The position numbers and the translations under genes are program-made. Of a stretch of DNA of 33,997 nucleotides, positions 729-28,200 are shown piece by piece; position 1 is the stretch's first letter, and every line of letters starts with the position of its first letter. The notes under the pieces were generated by a model, which did not search any database, was not told the DNA's origin, and saw nothing but the letters and a program-made list of their open reading frames with translations. Origin of the DNA: Chitinophagaceae bacterium (GTDB lineage: Bacteria; Bacteroidota; Bacteroidia; Chitinophagales; Chitinophagaceae); the NCBI GenBank assembly GCA_947455215.1, contig CANGNA010000050.1:1-33997 (forward strand), written 5' to 3'.

Positions 729-860
729 TTATTGCCTGAAGCCAGGTGGATCGCCTCTTCTATTATTTTTTGTATTTGTTTTCTTTGATAATTTCCTGAC
801 AACCTGTTTGGCAGCAGATTTTTTTGCGGGGGCTGATTTTTTAGGCAGCTTTTTGGCCAT
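729..860 (-). CDS. Small Lys/Ala-rich protein, 43 aa, last gene of the type III RM operon
   Basis: A 43-residue ORF on the strand of the restriction operon, starting 47 bp after the 225-aa gene. The N-terminal half is a very basic Lys/Ala/Pro/Ser tract (MAKKLPKKSAPAKKSAAKQ), like histone-H1-type or nucleic-acid-binding tails. The end is RRGDPPGFRQ. This DPPGF resembles the DPPDF that closes the two larger proteins upstream (Res and the 219-aa protein), which is the main reason to think the ORF is real. No family is recognised. An overlapping frame over 584-802 on the same strand is less convincing because it starts inside this ORF and runs into the repeat. Whether it is translated is an inference from context, composition and the shared tail. 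Confidence 0.5.
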   Translation of the reverse strand: MAKKLPKKSAPAKKSAAKQVVRKLSKKTNTKNNRRGDPPGFRQ

Positions 861-907
861 ATTCGTAGTTCATTAAATCAATTCAATCAAATAAAACCAG
901 GTTGTCG

Positions 908-1585
908 CTATGAAGCTGGCATTTTGGGTGGATGGGGAAGGGTGTCGTTGCAATTGCAAGTGTCGTTTGTGTCTACATCATAAATGTAGTAGTTCAGGCT
1001 AACATTAGTATCGTTTTTATGATTTTCGCATTTTGTCGGTTTACAACACTCAACAACCTTGCAACAGTGACATTCCTGTTTAGCCTTCGATTTTGTTTTA
1101 GCTTCCTTTTCCTGTACAAGATTATACCCTACGTAAAAGGAAAATGATACGACACCCATTATAAACGTTCGTACGGCCCAAAAACGCATAGACTTCAATC
1201 TATTCTTAGCTGCATGAAAAATAACAGAAGAGCTAAGTTTGTAATCCTTCATATCATTTGCATCTAATCCTTCATCTGGTGAAAATTTGTTCTTGTTTGC
1301 AAGAAAGTCATCTACGTGTTTAGAGAGTTCTGAACTAGCATTAGCAGAGTCTAAAAAGGCCCACATCATTAAGGCTATAGCTATTATGATGAGTGCCCAG
1401 CCGGTAAATAAGAAAAAGATGAGGGTTGATTCCTCGACTTTTACGATGTCCTTGATGAAGGTGACAGAAAATGCCAGCAAGCCGGAAGCTATCAGAATGA
1501 AATTCTTTTCAAATGCTTCCAGCTCTCTTGTCTGAGAGGAATACAATTCCTTTTTATAGTCTTTAAGGTCTTTGACTGTTGCCAT
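908..1585 (-). CDS. Three-TM membrane protein with Cys-rich tail, RM-operon accessory
   Basis: A 225-aa protein of unknown function, 14 bp downstream of the 219-aa gene and on the same strand, so probably co-transcribed with mod and res. Visible parts: a charged N-terminus (1-26), two closely spaced membrane helices (about 28-46 and 53-78), a polar segment of about 55 residues, a third helix (about 135-157), a Lys-rich stretch, then a cysteine cluster (C172, C174, C175, C180, C181, C186, later C210 and C212) that could bind metal or be oxidised. The paired N-terminal helices loosely recall SLATT-type membrane proteins of defence islands, but that is an impression of architecture only. It ends PHPPKMPAS, a weak echo of the DPPDF tails of its neighbours. 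The gene is relatively AT-rich. A membrane effector or sensor role next to a restriction system is speculation. Confidence 0.75.
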   Translation of the reverse strand: MATVKDLKDYKKELYSSQTRELEAFEKNFILIASGLLAFSVTFIKDIVKVEESTLIFFLFTGWALIIIAIALMMWAFLDSANASSELSKHVDDFLANKNKFSPDEGLDANDMKDYKLSSSVIFHAAKNRLKSMRFWAVRTFIMGVVSFSFYVGYNLVQEKEAKTKSKAKQECHCCKVVECCKPTKCENHKNDTNVSLNYYIYDVDTNDTCNCNDTLPHPPKMPAS

Positions 1586-1599
1586 GGGTACTAAAATTA

Positions 1600-2259
1600 T
1601 TAAAAATCAGGGGGATCGGCACTTTCAAATTTCAGAAACGAATTTCCGTTTTCCCCAATTATGCTTAAAGCCTGATTTATTTTGTCAGTGAGCAGTTTAA
1701 CAAGTGAACCGTCTTTATGAAGCAACTCATAGGGCGCTATATTATAGTGAACACCTAATGAAGCACAAATATGTAAACGTGTATAGTCTCTGTACAATAC
1801 TTGTTCCTGGAATCGTTCTCTTGTTTTCGAATCAAAACTGATAATCCGATTTTCAGACAAAAAAACCAATAGTTTTTCAATATTTTCCGGAGAATGCCTG
1901 TACAATAAACCTGCATGCTCTCGCCAAAAATTTACATATTTTCCTACAGATGTAACATTCGGAGTTTGAAAATAGAATAGATTTTCATAACTGCCGGCTA
2001 TATGAAAGTTAGGGGTGATTTCCCATTTACTGTCTAATCTGTCTAGTTTTAATGCGTGTGTGTAGAAAGCACGCGATTGACTCTGGCTCTCACCGAAATA
2101 TAGACTTATGGCAAGTGTTCCGTCAATTTGCGGAATTAGCCCAATCATCTTTACCGCTTCGAAGTCAACATTAATGTAAAATCCCCATTTCCTGTTGAAT
2201 TTGACAGAGTCGGGATTTTTTACAATTGACTTGAGTATTTTTTCAGCATCTATTGCCAT
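1600..2259 (-). CDS. Unknown 219-aa protein, RM-operon accessory, ends in ADPPDF
   Basis: A 219-aa soluble protein starting 12 bp after res on the same strand, so part of the same transcript. No family is recognised. It is mixed alpha/beta in character, with aromatic-rich stretches in the first half (WGFYINVDFEAVKMIG near 25-40; ENLFYFQTP near 92-100) and a helical second half (about 120-205). There is no signal peptide, membrane helix or obvious catalytic motif. The last residues, SADPPDF, match the end of Res (RADPPDF), although the rest of the two proteins is unrelated. Local base composition is AT-rich (about 37% GC near 1861-1920) compared with much of res and the ends of mod. It could be a regulator, an immunity protein or an additional effector; the sequence does not decide. 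Confidence 0.8.
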   Translation of the reverse strand: MAIDAEKILKSIVKNPDSVKFNRKWGFYINVDFEAVKMIGLIPQIDGTLAISLYFGESQSQSRAFYTHALKLDRLDSKWEITPNFHIAGSYENLFYFQTPNVTSVGKYVNFWREHAGLLYRHSPENIEKLLVFLSENRIISFDSKTRERFQEQVLYRDYTRLHICASLGVHYNIAPYELLHKDGSLVKLLTDKINQALSIIGENGNSFLKFESADPPDF

Positions 2260-2271
2260 AGCTAATTTCTT

Positions 2272-5157
2272 TTAAAAGTCAGGAGGATCTGCTCTGTAAT
2301 AAACAGCATCGTTTTTTCGCGGCGGGGACCCACCTTTAGGACCTGAAATATTATTACCTATGATCTGTCCGATATCATTAGGATCAAATGATACAGCCCA
2401 CGTCCAATGGCCAAAGCCTCCATGTTGGTTTACCGCTTTACACCATTCATCCAGAAAGCTCCGCTTCGTTTTGTCCTGGTCGGTGTCTCTTCCCTTGGTC
2501 TCGAGTATAAGGTGGTCTCCGTTAGAGAGTTTTACAATGAAATCAGGAAAATATCGCCTGATCACGCCCTGATGATTATACGTTATTGCAAATCCCAGAT
2601 GATCATTCTTTACAAATGATAAAACGTGTTCGCTGTCGTTAAGCGCCCTTGCTTCCTGGTACTCCCATTTACTGTCTACCACAGTGAACGAAACATGCGA
2701 CTTTTCAAAGTTCTCACAAGGCTTGCTTGTCCACCATGTTCTTATATCGGATGTAGATCGTATAGGATGTTCGTTATCGAATACGGGGGCTAATTCTGTG
2801 GCATTTTCACTACGTAACTCATTCCATATATGCTGGACGACCTTGTTCATGTTGAGCATGATCAAGATCCGTTTTTTCGCGTCGTCCTGGTTAAATAAAG
2901 GGTCTTTGATGACTATTTTGCCAGATGCAATGAAGCGTTCTATTATATTGATCAGCTGGATAAGAAATACTTCTTTGCTTCCTTTCCAGTCTGGCTTTTT
3001 TTCAGCATTGTATATTGAAGATGCTATCTTAAATATTATCGTCTGTAGCCTGGTTTTTTCGCCTATCTCCTTAAGGTCTATTTCTGAAAGCGCAGCCGGA
3101 TTTGGCTTGCCTGCTATCATAGCGGCCAGTTCGGCTTCCGTTATTGCCTGATAAGGATCAAGCACTAGTGGCGCTACGGCATTGATGTCAAGCGTAAGTT
3201 GTGGTTTGTATACATGATCGATGCGTACCACAACCGGGAAACTGATCTCATGCTGCTGTTTTTCGCGAGATGGTTCAATTTTGGTTTTAGGTGCAGGTGG
3301 TGGCGGTGGTGGGCCGTCTTTGCCGCCTTCGTGCGGCAGGAAGGTAAATGGTACACCAAAAATGTTTACATACTCAGCCTCGAATAATCCATCTTCGCCA
3401 ACATCATAGCTTGTTCTCCTTAATCCGCGCCCTACAACTTGCTCACATAATAACTGCGAGCTGAATGCACGGAGGCCCATAATGTGTGTGACCGTTTTAG
3501 CATCCCAGCCTTCGCTGAGCATACCCACCGATATGACGTTCTGTATCTGCTCTCCGGGTTCGCCCACCTTACCAACTGAATCGACTGTTTTTCTCAGCAG
3601 TTCGGCCTGTTGCTTTTTTGTAAGCTTGCGTTCTTTGGGTTGTTCGCTATCTTCCTCAGTCGTTTCATCAGCGGTGGTTTCGGTTACGTCTACCTGTTCG
3701 GTTTCAGCTTCCGCCTTTTCCAGCACGCTGCTGTCTATTTGCAGGGTTTTGTCGGGGTCGCATAATTCCGGTAGCCCGGCGATCGCCAGGTTAAATGCGT
3801 CGTGATCGAAAGAGTATTTTATGCGTGCAGAAGTGAAGGTAGTATTGGCAACCGTTATCATTACCGGCGGAATGGTGTATCCGGCATTTCGCCAGGCATC
3901 GTAGGTGGCTTTCCAGTCTTTACCCAACAGCATGTATGCGTTGCGTATCAGGTCGGGCAGTGGTTCGCTGGCATCTGCTTTCCTGTTTATATCATCCTTT
4001 ACAGTTTCATCGTTGTAAATGTGGTATAACCTTGACCGCAGATCATTGTCTACATTACCATCATCGCGAACGACAACGCGGGGTGTTTTTACGAGGCCGG
4101 ACTCAATGGCATCGTTTAACCCAAAGTCGCTAACTATCCAAGGGAAGAGTGCTTCTTCCGACGCCTTTTTGCCAGAGGGTGCGAATGGAGTAGCGGAGAG
4201 GTCGAAGCACTGGAGTATGCCGCGCGCGCGATGGATGCGATCTAGGCCGCCAATCCAGATGGTACTTTCTTCAATGTCCTCTTTTTTGAGGCCTTTCACC
4301 TTACTCTCTGCAGGAATGCGCCACGCATGGTGCGCCTCATCGTTGATGACAATTATATTTTTGGCAAATGCCATGTCGCCCAGCACTTCCCTTACGTAAG
4401 CCTCATCGCTTTTGGCCCCACGCTTATCTACTGTTTTTCGCTTAGCGATCTTTTCTTCGCTATCCCACGCAAGGGCATGCCAGTTAATTATCTTAACCTT
4501 ACCCTGCCGCAGGGACTCCATAAGGGCGGGCGGTACTATATTGAACTCCTCGTAGTAATTATCTGCAGCTGAAGGGTCTAATACGGCCAGCCTGCTACGC
4601 ACCGTGAGGCCGGGAGCTACAGCCAGTACATTTTTTGAAAAGCGACCGTCTTTATTATTGGCCACCTTGTTGAGCACCTGCCATGCTATAAGCATGCTCA
4701 TAACAATGGTTTTGCCGGAGCCTGTAGCCATTTTATTACACCAGCGGGCAAAGCTGCCCCCATCGCCCGGTACGATAATACCAGTGCGTTCGGAGGGGTG
4801 TGCCTCTGTAAGCCAGATAAGTGTTTCTATAGCTTCGAGCTGGCAAAAGAAGAACCGGCGGTCTTTTCTTTCTTCGGGATCCTGCCAGTGGGTAAGCAAG
4901 CGTTTGGTAATACCGGTAACGCCAGGATAGCCGGCATCGCGCCATTTCCTGATGCGAGGACGAATAGCATTGACGAGGTCTATCTCTATAAAATTGCCGG
5001 GATCATCGAACGACTTAGAGCTTTCTGAGGCTACAACATAGCCTGCAGGCCGCCTGCCATTTTGCAACACAAACTCGCGCGTGTCGCGGAGATACTCCCA
5101 GTATTGCTGAGGTTCCACGTATGGCGAGTTGATAATGAGCTTATCTATCTTATTCAT
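2272..5157 (-). CDS. res: Type III restriction enzyme Res subunit (helicase-nuclease)
   Basis: The 961-aa Res subunit, which together with Mod translocates on DNA using ATP and cuts unmodified DNA. Superfamily 2 helicase motifs are complete: Walker A ATGSGKT (144-150), DEAH (273-276), SAT (321-323), EGWDAKTVTH (549-558) and motif VI QVVGRGLRR (573-581). A PD-(D/E)xK nuclease follows near the C-terminus: PD at 871-872, then LETK with E886 and K888. A highly acidic insert (about 482-510) and a run of seven prolines (616-621 region) are probably linkers. The protein extends about 30 residues beyond the nuclease fold and ends RADPPDF, a tail shared with the next gene. Its start is 3 bp after the mod stop codon, so the pair is translationally tight. 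The enzyme appears intact. Family assignment is secure; DNA specificity lies in Mod. Confidence 0.95.
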   Translation of the reverse strand: MNKIDKLIINSPYVEPQQYWEYLRDTREFVLQNGRRPAGYVVASESSKSFDDPGNFIEIDLVNAIRPRIRKWRDAGYPGVTGITKRLLTHWQDPEERKDRRFFFCQLEAIETLIWLTEAHPSERTGIIVPGDGGSFARWCNKMATGSGKTIVMSMLIAWQVLNKVANNKDGRFSKNVLAVAPGLTVRSRLAVLDPSAADNYYEEFNIVPPALMESLRQGKVKIINWHALAWDSEEKIAKRKTVDKRGAKSDEAYVREVLGDMAFAKNIIVINDEAHHAWRIPAESKVKGLKKEDIEESTIWIGGLDRIHRARGILQCFDLSATPFAPSGKKASEEALFPWIVSDFGLNDAIESGLVKTPRVVVRDDGNVDNDLRSRLYHIYNDETVKDDINRKADASEPLPDLIRNAYMLLGKDWKATYDAWRNAGYTIPPVMITVANTTFTSARIKYSFDHDAFNLAIAGLPELCDPDKTLQIDSSVLEKAEAETEQVDVTETTADETTEEDSEQPKERKLTKKQQAELLRKTVDSVGKVGEPGEQIQNVISVGMLSEGWDAKTVTHIMGLRAFSSQLLCEQVVGRGLRRTSYDVGEDGLFEAEYVNIFGVPFTFLPHEGGKDGPPPPPPAPKTKIEPSREKQQHEISFPVVVRIDHVYKPQLTLDINAVAPLVLDPYQAITEAELAAMIAGKPNPAALSEIDLKEIGEKTRLQTIIFKIASSIYNAEKKPDWKGSKEVFLIQLINIIERFIASGKIVIKDPLFNQDDAKKRILIMLNMNKVVQHIWNELRSENATELAPVFDNEHPIRSTSDIRTWWTSKPCENFEKSHVSFTVVDSKWEYQEARALNDSEHVLSFVKNDHLGFAITYNHQGVIRRYFPDFIVKLSNGDHLILETKGRDTDQDKTKRSFLDEWCKAVNQHGGFGHWTWAVSFDPNDIGQIIGNNISGPKGGSPPRKNDAVYYRADPPDF

Positions 5158-5160
5158 AGG

Positions 5161-7656
5161 TTAGGGCCGGATTATTTTTAAGCTTTCGATACCACGGGCA
5201 TCAATTATTTTTACGGCAATGGCTTTACCAGGCACGAAAGGCAGCGATACGGTGCCGCCAAATGATTCTATTTTTTCCTCATCAATCTCAGCTTTCAGGT
5301 TTTTAGCCAATGTGGCCCAGCCTTCTTTGGCACCCGCCATAGGGAAGAATACCTGCGATGGAAATATGCTGCGGCTATCGTAATCGGTATCCAGCATCCA
5401 CATGGCAATATCGCCCTTGCCACCACCATCTACCGTGCCGGTTTTGGGGTTATAATAGTCGAAGCCAAGTACCTCGACAATGAACTTACCTTTCTCATCG
5501 GCTGGACGGTAGGCCACATCGGGCTGGCCAATGAGCCAGAAGCTCTCGTTGCTGCTGCGTTTTTTCTTCAGGTCGTCGGTAAGCATATCGGCGTTCATCT
5601 GCGCTTTGAGCAGGGTAACACCGGGCCAATTGGTCTCGTCGATATCTTTAGCGGCTTCCTCATCGAACTGGAAGGCACAGAAAAGCACCATTACCGGCTT
5701 TGGCCGCAGGTGGCCTGCTTCTTCCAGCGCCAGCTCTACGGTACGCTGCTCTAACGGTGCGTACTCCGGCCCAAAGCACACTACTACCCGCTTGCCGTCC
5801 CTAGTTTCGGCATCGCACTGCAGGAACCGTGTGCCTGCCAATGGCTCTACGCGTACGAATTCTATCTTTTGGCCACCCTTAGCGCGCACGCCAGCCCTCA
5901 GCAACTCGTCGCGCCATTCGCTTTGGCGCAGTGTTTCGCCTGTGCGGGCAACGGATACATCGGCCTCGAGTGCATATTCGCTTTGTATTTCATCGAATGA
6001 TTTAGCAACAGGAGCCGGAACCGCCTCTACGGTAAATGGACCCGTGACTCGGCTACGCTTGTTGTCAATTAAAGGTTGATCATTCAACGTCTCTACCGGG
6101 GTAGGTTCATTGTTTGCGATACTCTTAAGTGTAATATGGGGGACAGTTTTGTATTTAAATCCACTTCCAACACCCTCTTGTGGATGCGCCAATTCAAAGA
6201 AGTCAAAACACGAGCTCATTAGTCGCTGTTTGGTTAATGTTACTGCAACACGAGAGGTATCACAAGTAATCCATCGTCTTCCAAATTCCTCTGCAACTCG
6301 TGCTGTAGTGCCACTGCCACAAGTTATGTCTAAGACTAAATCACCTGGATCTGTGGACATTAGAATGCAACGTTGAACTGGAAGTTCCGCAGTTTGAACT
6401 ACGTATAATTTTTGCGAAAATGTACCGATTATCGTGTCGTGCCAGACGTTGTTAATAGGCGACAATATAAAGTCGGATTCATAGAGTTTATACGATAATA
6501 TACTTCCCAAAGAAATTACTCGTTTTGCTTTTGTCAATCTGTCCAATCCGTCTGGGCAACTAGCAGCCCAATGTCGTCCCGGTGATGGATTGTATAACTT
6601 GTCTTCGAATACATACGGTTGTGGGCTGCTAGGGGCACCCTGCCTACTGATATCAGCAGCTCGAAATATTCTTCCTTCAGGCAATGGTGTTTTATTAGAC
6701 AATTCGTCTTTAGATAGCCTTCGCCAAGAGCCGTCACCTAGTTCAATACAGTTGTATGTTCCACCTTCAGTTTTTTCTTTCCTTTCGACAAAAGGTTGGT
6801 GATATTTCGTTTTCTCTTTATTACTACCATACCAAATTATATAGTCATATGTTGCTGCCAAATAGCTTGATCTAATTGATGAGGTTTTGGCAAACGATAT
6901 TAAACTGATGTAGTTATGTCCACCAAAAACCTCATCCATCAATTCCCTAACATGATGTACGTTCTCATCGCTAATCTGGACGAAAATACTACCGCTCTCA
7001 TGCAATAATTCTTTAGCTAATAACAATCTATCACGGAGATAGGTAAGGTAGCTATGAATGCCCAACTCCCATGTGTCTCTAAAAGCCTTTATCATTTCGG
7101 GCTCGGTAGTCAGGTCTTCATCCTTTCCGTCCTTTACATCGCGTTTGTTAACAAAAGGCTGGAAATTGCTACCATATTTAATACCATACGGCGGATCGAA
7201 ATAGACCATCTGCACCTTGCCGGCCATAGCTTCTTTTTCCAGCAGGCTGTTCATTACCAGCAGGCTATCGCCTGCGATGAGCCTGTTGCTCCAGTTCTCT
7301 TTATGCTTATAAAATTCTATTGCTTCGCGTAAAGGCTTTTTATCCTCTTCGAACAGAGAGAGTTGAGGCTTAGGCACATCTTTTTTTACGGTGTCAATTA
7401 TTTTACGCGGGTCGATACGTTCATGCACATGCAGGCTTACCGTTGGTACCTCGAAGCTAGTATGCTCGGCCTTGCCTGCCCATTGCAATTGAGGGTCGAG
7501 ATGGGGATCGTACTCGTACTTTTTCTTTTTAAAGCCGCCATTGTCGCTATGGGCATCTACAAGACCTACGGGTGGGTTGTTCAGCCTTGTTTTATCTGTG
7601 TGTTCGTACTGCTCAATTGGTTTCGCAGTTTTTTTCGGTTTGGTAGCTTTAGCCAT
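5161..7656 (-). CDS. mod: Type III restriction system adenine methyltransferase (Mod)
   Basis: The beta-class N6-adenine DNA methyltransferase and target-recognition subunit of the system, 831 aa from the chosen start. Motif IV DPPY is at residues 154-157, and the AdoMet motif LDITCGSGTT follows at 442-451, the order expected for this class. The DNA-recognition region lies between them. The last 280 residues form an extra C-terminal part (including VEVLGFDYYNPKTG) that I associate with long Mod proteins paired with Res of about 960 aa. I chose the ATG at 7656 (MAKATKPKKTAKP) because the upstream reading to 7785 adds 43 unlike residues; 7785 remains possible. The segment 6110-7130 is strikingly AT-rich (28% GC at 6481-6540) against 60% at 5761-5820 and 52% at 7201-7260, which suggests exchange of the specificity region. 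No simple-sequence tract typical of phase-variable mod genes is visible. Confidence 0.93.
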   Translation of the reverse strand: MAKATKPKKTAKPIEQYEHTDKTRLNNPPVGLVDAHSDNGGFKKKKYEYDPHLDPQLQWAGKAEHTSFEVPTVSLHVHERIDPRKIIDTVKKDVPKPQLSLFEEDKKPLREAIEFYKHKENWSNRLIAGDSLLVMNSLLEKEAMAGKVQMVYFDPPYGIKYGSNFQPFVNKRDVKDGKDEDLTTEPEMIKAFRDTWELGIHSYLTYLRDRLLLAKELLHESGSIFVQISDENVHHVRELMDEVFGGHNYISLISFAKTSSIRSSYLAATYDYIIWYGSNKEKTKYHQPFVERKEKTEGGTYNCIELGDGSWRRLSKDELSNKTPLPEGRIFRAADISRQGAPSSPQPYVFEDKLYNPSPGRHWAASCPDGLDRLTKAKRVISLGSILSYKLYESDFILSPINNVWHDTIIGTFSQKLYVVQTAELPVQRCILMSTDPGDLVLDITCGSGTTARVAEEFGRRWITCDTSRVAVTLTKQRLMSSCFDFFELAHPQEGVGSGFKYKTVPHITLKSIANNEPTPVETLNDQPLIDNKRSRVTGPFTVEAVPAPVAKSFDEIQSEYALEADVSVARTGETLRQSEWRDELLRAGVRAKGGQKIEFVRVEPLAGTRFLQCDAETRDGKRVVVCFGPEYAPLEQRTVELALEEAGHLRPKPVMVLFCAFQFDEEAAKDIDETNWPGVTLLKAQMNADMLTDDLKKKRSSNESFWLIGQPDVAYRPADEKGKFIVEVLGFDYYNPKTGTVDGGGKGDIAMWMLDTDYDSRSIFPSQVFFPMAGAKEGWATLAKNLKAEIDEEKIESFGGTVSLPFVPGKAIAVKIIDARGIESLKIIRP

Positions 7657-7823
7657 GGGACTTATGGTATTTAAGTGCTTAAAGATATTGTTAATTGGAA
7701 GAATCTCAAACAGATAGTGATAAATGCTGCCAGGGATACACAAGGTTGTTGCCTGACAATTATGGACCAAGGTTACTTTTGCCAATGTTACGGCCTGCTT
7801 TGCCGAAGGCTACGGCGGCTGAG

Positions 7824-28062: not shown

Positions 28063-28200
28063 ATTTAGTAAAAGATCTTGAATGGTGTCTTTCGCTCTTA
28101 CAGAGCTTGACCCAACTTCTTTAATTCCACCCGGGACTGCATCCCGGGCTATTATCTTTCGGTCTTTCAGACCGCATTTTCTTAATAAATGACATTGCCC
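28063..28200 (+). repeat. Direct repeat E, copy 2
   Basis: Second copy of the 140-bp element at 25935-26075, with CCCGGGA-CTGCA-TCCCGGG and CGGTCT-TTC-AGACCG, again ending AATGACATTGCCC. It lies upstream of the acyltransferase gene and downstream of the permease gene. The remaining 28201-28297 shows nothing recognisable. Confidence 0.85.

Follow-up and report, generated by a model that had tools for sequence, protein, structure and literature searches.

Diprolyl C-terminal tails on consecutive products of a type III-like restriction operon in a Chitinophagaceae bacterium: a possible ribosome-pausing signal

Short C-terminal tails built around two adjacent prolines were found on consecutive gene products of a restriction operon in a Chitinophagaceae bacterium (Bacteroidota; GenBank assembly GCA_947455215.1; 4.2 Mb in 118 contigs). 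The operon lies on the minus strand of contig 50 (CANGNA010000050.1), of which positions 1 to 33,997 were analysed (this stretch of 33,997 nucleotides (nt) is called the window below), and comprises, in order, the genes for Mod, a DNA methyltransferase, for Res, a helicase-nuclease of 961 amino acids (aa), and for three accessory proteins of 219, 225 and 43 aa. The tails are a real, local peculiarity of this operon at the peptide level. Judged from sequence, the pattern [R/S][A/G]DPP[D/G] is best read as a fusion of two motifs published as stalling ribosomes, namely an R-[A/G]-x-P core of the SecM/RAPP-like kind and the pause at Asp-Pro-Pro-Asp/Gly, and our tentative view is that the tails may slow or arrest translation, acting in the nascent chain and setting the expression of the genes downstream. 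Because they share a diprolyl core with unlike terminal residues, and because three of them match arrest or pause motifs, a nascent-chain signal fits better than a tag; that is, the tails look more like pause signals at the ends of open reading frames (ORFs) than like marks on finished proteins.

The endings that the original prediction had pointed out in the Res, 219-, 43- and 225-aa proteins are present as described, that of the 225-aa protein being only a weak echo (Table 1). Mod, which ends in IESLKIIRP, has no diprolyl tail. The 219-, 225- and 43-aa proteins have no PP other than that at their end, and the last residue is F in Res and the 219-aa protein, S in the 225-aa protein and Q in the 43-aa protein. 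The second Pro codon precedes the stop codon by 9, 9, 18 and 15 nt (Res, 219, 225 and 43 aa) and the next start by 24, 26 and 68 nt (Res, 219 and 225 aa), and the codon before PP is GAT in all three DPP tails. The DNA of the Res and 219-aa tails differs at four of 24 nt, and all four differences fall at third codon positions (chance 0.0066), so the likeness is one of peptide and not of DNA. It stops at the stop codon, and a four-way alignment showed similarity over the tail codons only.

Table 1. Positions in the window of the operon genes, their tails and the neighbouring ribosomal RNA (rRNA) gene
Feature	Position	Strand	Basis or remark
Mod, type III-like DNA methyltransferase	5161-7785	-	Pfam N6_N4_Mtase; PADLOC MTase_III, 1.9e-154
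Res, 961 aa, BPTD_3080 family restriction endonuclease (type III-like helicase-nuclease)	2272-5157	-	NF046055, Pfam ResIII
Res tail, R-A-D-P-P-D-F-stop (end ...YYRADPPDF)	2272-2295	-	Within the extension of residues 936-961
219-aa protein, no convincing relatives or family	1600-2259	-	ORF and library searches
219-aa tail, S-A-D-P-P-D-F-stop (end ...FESADPPDF)	1600-1623	-	
225-aa membrane protein	908-1585	-	Hydropathy and weak relatives
225-aa end, L-P-H-P-P-K-M-P-A-S-stop	908-940	-	Weak echo
43-aa Lys-rich open frame	729-860	-	Final operon gene; gene status not certain
43-aa end, R-G-D-P-P-G-F-R-Q-stop (...RRGDPPGFRQ)	729-758	-	
5S rRNA	13-124	opposite to operon	

In the extracts of the papers cited in this paragraph, PP is reported to stall ribosomes when Asp or Ala precedes it and Trp, Asp, Asn or Gly follows (PMC4176338), several PPD sites are among the EF-P-dependent pauses (PMC4140641), and a codon starting with G before P(P) gives a stronger arrest (PMC11611912). 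The three clear tails fit these XPPX contexts as DPPD, DPPD and DPPG, but HPPK of the 225-aa protein does not. RAGP, RAPP, RAPG and RGSP are demonstrated arrest cores, and RADP is a motif of upstream ORFs (uORFs) that cluster with SecM (PMC10987492); the structural basis of RAPP arrest is treated in PMC10951233. An R-[A/G]-x-P core stands near the C-terminus in two of the four tails (RADP in Res and RGDP in the 43-aa protein), the 219-aa tail having SADP, without Arg, and the 225-aa tail PHPP, which is no match. In CruR, a RAPP motif three residues from the C-terminus is required for expression of the downstream operon genes (PMC9426467), and RAPP-like motifs are avoided in proteomes and concentrated near C-termini upstream of other genes (PMC12992588).

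A ribosome reaching the ends of the Res and 219-aa genes would, on the pausing proposal, first meet a SecM/RAPP-like core (R-A-x-P, with Asp in the P site and Pro in the A site) and then an Asp-Pro-Pro-Asp diprolyl pause; from the second Pro codon of this pause it is 9 nt to the stop and 24-26 nt to the start that follows. The parked ribosome may set the amount of the next gene product by delaying or coupling initiation; alternatively, it may protect the growing transcript from Rho, as has been suggested for CruR. The tails would then meter a newly acquired low-GC accessory module (the 219-, 225- and 43-aa genes) behind an ordinary Mod-Res pair. A gene for EF-P is present in the source genome.

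For comparison with the rest of this genome, 60 stretches of 20 kb (1.2 of the 4.2 Mb) were sampled, in which a simple gene caller found 896 genes with 317,206 codons. Only nine of the 896 genes have PP within their last 10 residues, as against all four of the genes after Mod; DPP within the last 12 residues was found in none of the 896, and two PP tails in none of 230 overlapping runs of four same-strand genes. The codon pattern for DPP[DG]F, GAYCCNCCNGRYTTY, which was chosen only after the tails had been seen, occurs three times in the whole genome (both strands), always in these tails, in frame and at the gene end, and its reversed-pattern control does not occur at all. By estimate from base composition about two sites are expected, and therefore the count is ordinary and the location is not. 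R[AG]DP was not seen in the sampled codons (4.6 expected from composition), nor was R[AG]PP. The wider R[AG][PGDS]P was seen five times against 19.4 expected, a deficit that is only partly specific, since the Ala and Lys controls were low too (21 of 39.5 and 7 of 28.2, respectively).

Thousands of windows have been read, and short Pro-containing ends might coincide in one of them. We consider this improbable, although six residues shared by one adjacent pair could be an accident across very many genomes, where such sharing is expected occasionally: in two of the 559 adjacent same-strand pairs of the sample, both members have 6-7 terminal residues in common (their ends look like those of tandem paralogues), some 5-mer common to the last ten residues is frequent in this genome, and the expected number of DPP[DG]F sites is near that found. 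Three to four tails in one operon, however, can hardly be chance, given the frequency of PP among the genes after Mod and the confinement of all three coding sites to in-frame gene ends here, with the reservation that the motif was picked post hoc.

Res scored 1112 bits with the NCBIfam BPTD_3080 profile (NF046055; cut-off 800), which, together with the adjacency of Mod and Res, identifies a BPTD_3080 type III-like restriction system. Positions 2-968 of the 970 in the profile align to Res residues 5-935, and residues 936-961 (26 aa) lie beyond it. The original prediction had described the Res tail as an addition of about 30 residues, and the addition is borne out at this slightly smaller length: 24 homologous loci were found in 84,980 species genomes, and in all 20 that were aligned the tail is missing and the end is not DPPDF, although the closest reach 81% identity. 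Twelve of the 20, with lengths of 928-976 aa, end close to where the profile does. DPPDF endings were also absent from 25 other matches (of which L005 is the same locus as L069 and L024 is incomplete), and the plasmid matches stop at residue 939 or earlier (best 40 of 58 records). As had been proposed, the tail is an extension of Res, one that these aligned homologues lack.

Two other features of Res and its homologues were observed. Eight of the 20 (L067, L068, L069, L070, L073, L075, L078 and L083) have at their C-terminus a further, fused domain of some 165 residues, starting near SGHIFADTDDF; a remnant of this domain was considered as the source of the tail, because SGHIFADTDDF and ADPPDF match at four of six residues, and was rejected, as it leaves the second tail unexplained. 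Res residues 616-621 form a six-proline run, which has five to eight prolines in all 20 aligned homologues and is a conserved potential stall site.

The 219-, 225- and 43-aa genes look like later additions behind an ordinary Mod-Res pair because of their low guanine-plus-cytosine (GC) contents, 0.365, 0.385 and 0.394, compared with 0.483 +/- 0.035 (standard deviation) for the sampled genes; Res has 0.478 and Mod 0.459. This foreign composition, and the newness of the Res tail relative to homologues as much as 81% identical, would suit a shared origin without function, in which gene ends were copied or carried along when the low-GC genes joined Mod-Res and the tail is a leftover. The probability of such an origin is low, since the resemblance goes no further than the stop codon and the third-position differences described above are unlike neutral copying. 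No repeat family was found to join the two tails among the best 20 of 21 direct-repeat families; with similarity confined to the tail codons, a DNA repeat or cassette end was also rejected.

The tails had originally been interpreted as a recognition tag, with enrichment at C-termini in Bacteroidota as the proposed check. DPPDF-stop (TAA and TGA stops only) was searched for in 395 genomes of the phylum and 348 of the order, overlapping samples that both contain the source genome. Outside the source genome it occurs once each in nine of 394 and eight of 347 genomes, respectively, and the frames that end in these matches have 5-66 codons (phylum) and 6-32 codons (order), none being a credible gene. 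With two and three matches of the reversed pattern, DPPDF-stop is somewhat commoner than its reversal, though not at gene ends. Viral contigs contain 14 ADPPDF-stop loci, in frames of 8-120 codons, and no match to the tail pattern of the 43-aa protein. A widespread C-terminal tag is thus rejected, as no long reading frame ends in DPPDF-stop in the 394 and 347 other genomes. What remains of the interpretation is that the tails are real, specific to this locus, an addition in Res and alike as peptides; the general tag is not supported, all matches outside the source genome being in short frames (<=66 codons).

A local mark is a different matter, and the main rival of the pausing reading is a tag for docking or assembly, of the form [DH]PPx[FM] on flexible tails, that would bring the Res, 219-, 225- and 43-aa products to a common partner, as with encapsulin cargo. 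It would account for the likeness at the peptide level, for the position of the Res and 225-aa tails on C-terminal extensions missing in aligned relatives, for the tail on the last gene, and for a Pro-rich tail on an R subunit encoded beside a relative of the 225-aa membrane protein (see below). We nevertheless regard it as unlikely. Encapsulin cargo-loading peptides are, in the source as seen in part, likewise short C-terminal marks for a partner, but here the terminal residue is not common to the tails, and a Pfam scan of 26 ORFs of the window recognised neither an encapsulin shell gene nor any other protein that would form a shell, bind peptides or act as a modifying enzyme. R[AG]DPP[DG] would also be surprising as a mark, since the stall motifs that compose it do not occur in the sampled part of the proteome.

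Far less probable is a C-terminal degron through which a protease would control the nuclease. Its precedent is restriction alleviation by ClpXP, which targets an R subunit, the HsdR of EcoKI, but in the extract of the same paper no N- or C-terminal mutant lost the degron (PMC4231737). The presence of the tail on a 43-aa peptide also speaks against it. We know of no degron that resembles a terminal PPDF.

Three mimicries were tried and set aside. Methyltransferase motif IV is DPP[YFW], and Mod has FDPPYG, to which DPPD and DPPG of the tails do not correspond. The FtsZ C-terminal peptide is not close either, the FtsZ of this genome having NVPAYMRK, and for the SSB tail no SSB was found in the assembly for comparison. 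As to the latter, no match to the SSB family PF00436 was obtained in the whole genome even at E 10, although the assembly is called 100% complete; ten of 14 control genomes passed the PF00436 cut-off, and the absence here is perhaps an assembly gap.

Several observations weigh against ribosome pausing. In the sequences themselves, the 219-aa tail has S in place of Arg and PHPPK of the 225-aa protein does not fit the core, and in the extract of PMC12992588 the variant AAPP, where Ala takes the place of Arg, is defective in arrest. The absence of DPP[DG] at any position from the 317,206 sampled codons is weak evidence, as only 1.5 to 3.7 occurrences were expected. The 43-aa tail sits on the last gene, with no downstream gene in sight to control: no co-directional gene was seen beyond it in the window, where the 5S rRNA gene on the other strand comes next. 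Known arrest peptides usually have a signal or membrane segment, whereas hydropathy gave no hydrophobic segment for Res and the 219-aa protein. Predicted mRNA structure shows no switch of the SecM type: with a stalled ribosome masked, the start that follows becomes no more accessible than at the 130 ordinary junctions compared, of which 36%, 33% and 62%, respectively, do equally well. Homologues in which selection on the tail might show were not found for the 219- or 43-aa gene, and the DPPDF tails are likewise without relatives. Plain diprolyl pauses are expected to be relieved by EF-P, unlike the case of CruR, in which EF-P had no effect (PMC9426467, in extract). According to the parts of PMC10987492 at hand, most of the RAPP-like sequences tested from Escherichia coli and Bacillus subtilis proteins do not arrest, and direct proof of CruR arrest is still missing.

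An RNA switch at the junctions was also rejected, because the folds are weak (z scores of -1.81, -0.59, -0.73 and -0.16) and the opening of the start by a stalled ribosome is ordinary. In the window, 798-806 and 898-906 (GACAACCUG/CAGGUUGUC) would form a helix of nine pairs with the beginning of the 43-aa frame inside it; its folding is no better than that of shuffled sequences.

Compared with SecM/RAPP-like arrest peptides (SecM, ApdA, ApdP and ApcA, with CruR proposed), the tails are alike in part, two of the four having R-[A/G]-x-P near the end of the ORF and three of the ORFs lying upstream of a co-directional gene, and the motif is likewise rare in the proteome. They differ in that they are carried by a full-length restriction enzyme and successive genes, in the extra Pro and the Asp or Gly that follow, and in the features already noted, Ser for Arg in one tail and no hydrophobic segment in Res and the 219-aa protein; and they are known from sequence alone. 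In CruR, as far as the extract goes, CXXC and RAPP are 45 residues apart, a spacing kept within one or two residues, and in the 225-aa protein CXXC (172-175) and PHPP (217-220) have 41 residues between them; however, no Pfam match to DUF2946, the domain of CruR, was found in the 225-aa protein, which is not assigned to CruR/DUF2946. EF-P-dependent XPPX pause sites have the same Asp before PP and Asp or Gly after it, whereas the published ones, in the extracts seen, do not occupy the final codons of one gene after another as these do. BPTD_3080-family Mod-Res systems share with this operon the Mod-Res adjacency, the Res score and the conserved polyproline run of Res; the operon differs in the tail-bearing C-terminal extension and in its three additional downstream genes, which were not recognised beside the homologues read.

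A possible parallel was found in type I systems. In two genomes a type I R subunit gene (L166:7202-10050, minus strand; L167:5127-7996, plus strand) runs at its end 4 nt into the gene for a relative of the 225-aa protein, and these R subunits end in FIPPP[RK]PIPP plus a few residues (FIPPPRPIPPKTNSK or FIPPPKPIPPTGNIK). In L167, the only one of the two for which domains were scanned, the Pro tail lies beyond the EcoEI_R_C domain, and the Pro codons vary between the two R subunits while the peptide core holds. Polyproline near the C-terminus is another published arrest class (the LPPP uORFs; PMC10987492, in extract). To be set against this, the two R subunits are 85% identical and represent one lineage, the upstream neighbour of the relative in L169 has no Pro tail, and in L168 the neighbouring gene has the opposite orientation. 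Examination of 27 genomes from a single family gave six more R subunits, with 26-31% identity, and none of them has a Pro tail. In the roughly 280-760 bases downstream of those six, five have no closed plus-strand frame of at least 80 aa and L177 has a frame of 187 aa, the stretch in L173 being too short to tell. The L167 R subunit had no match in viral contigs and 47 in plasmid records, none covering 80%, and nothing was found in the literature on HsdR, a membrane protein and a proline-rich sequence together. The parallel is a lead, not a demonstration.

A more specific version of the pausing reading, rather doubtful in our judgement, is that the nascent nuclease end would hold the ribosome until the C-terminal domain leaves the tunnel, folds or meets a partner, and that only there would held or released ribosomes open the following accessory and membrane genes. 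Serial stall tails would then act as translational gates one after another in a defence operon, and the type I systems of L166 and L167 would have a polyproline version. The C-terminal domain of Res ends about 20 residues before the stall core.

Library searches (Pfam, NCBIfam, PADLOC and others) gave no confident family for the 219-, 225- or 43-aa protein, the best match being that of the 225-aa protein to phrog_25713 (unknown function; E = 0.0033). For the 219-aa protein no convincing relative was found in the 394 other genomes of the phylum (two matches, E = 0.003-0.006, have internal stops), and none in the 84,980 species genomes (pattern search), viral contigs, plasmids or phages; single-sequence AlphaFold2 gave a mean predicted local distance difference test score of 38.9, which is useless. 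The 43-aa protein gave three low-complexity matches (E = 0.02-0.07) in 197 other genomes of the class and none in plasmids. Five weak relatives of the 225-aa protein besides itself, one with internal stops, were found in 335 genomes of the class; neither it nor its L167 relative has any in viral contigs or plasmids. Its core resembles proteins of 135-163 aa that look like three-helix membrane proteins, hydropathy having been computed within this group for the 225-aa protein. The maximum over 19 residues is 2.71 for this protein, the only one with clear segments, and 1.46, 1.28 and -0.84 for the Res, 219- and 43-aa proteins, respectively. A Cys-rich C-terminal extension of about 60 residues is missing in four relatives; eight Cys, with one CXXC, lie at residues 172-212 (950-1072 of the window, minus strand), a stretch that the four relatives lack.

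The gaps to the next gene are 12 nt after Res, 14 nt after the 219-aa gene and 47 nt after the 225-aa gene. Past the 5S rRNA gene, at 124-340 of the window, are three successive near-identical terminator-like stretches, GAAAGCCTCAGCTAA.GC.GGGGCTTTCTTCG. Elsewhere in the window, SprB and CHU_C domains are present among the proteins, and a match to the Acido-Lenti-1 RNA, its 37 bits being exactly the gathering score, was found at 28130-28174 (plus strand) in this Bacteroidota genome.

Among the matches listed for literature joining translation arrest with restriction or phage defence, arrest tails on restriction operons are undescribed in the extracts, and the word 'restriction' is absent from the main text of PMC12992588. 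Published arrest-type C-termini, as represented in these extracts, are mainly on small secreted or membrane leader proteins. If the pausing reading is true, nascent-chain arrest, found here on a large nuclease and on the genes that follow it, would also meter anti-phage operons.

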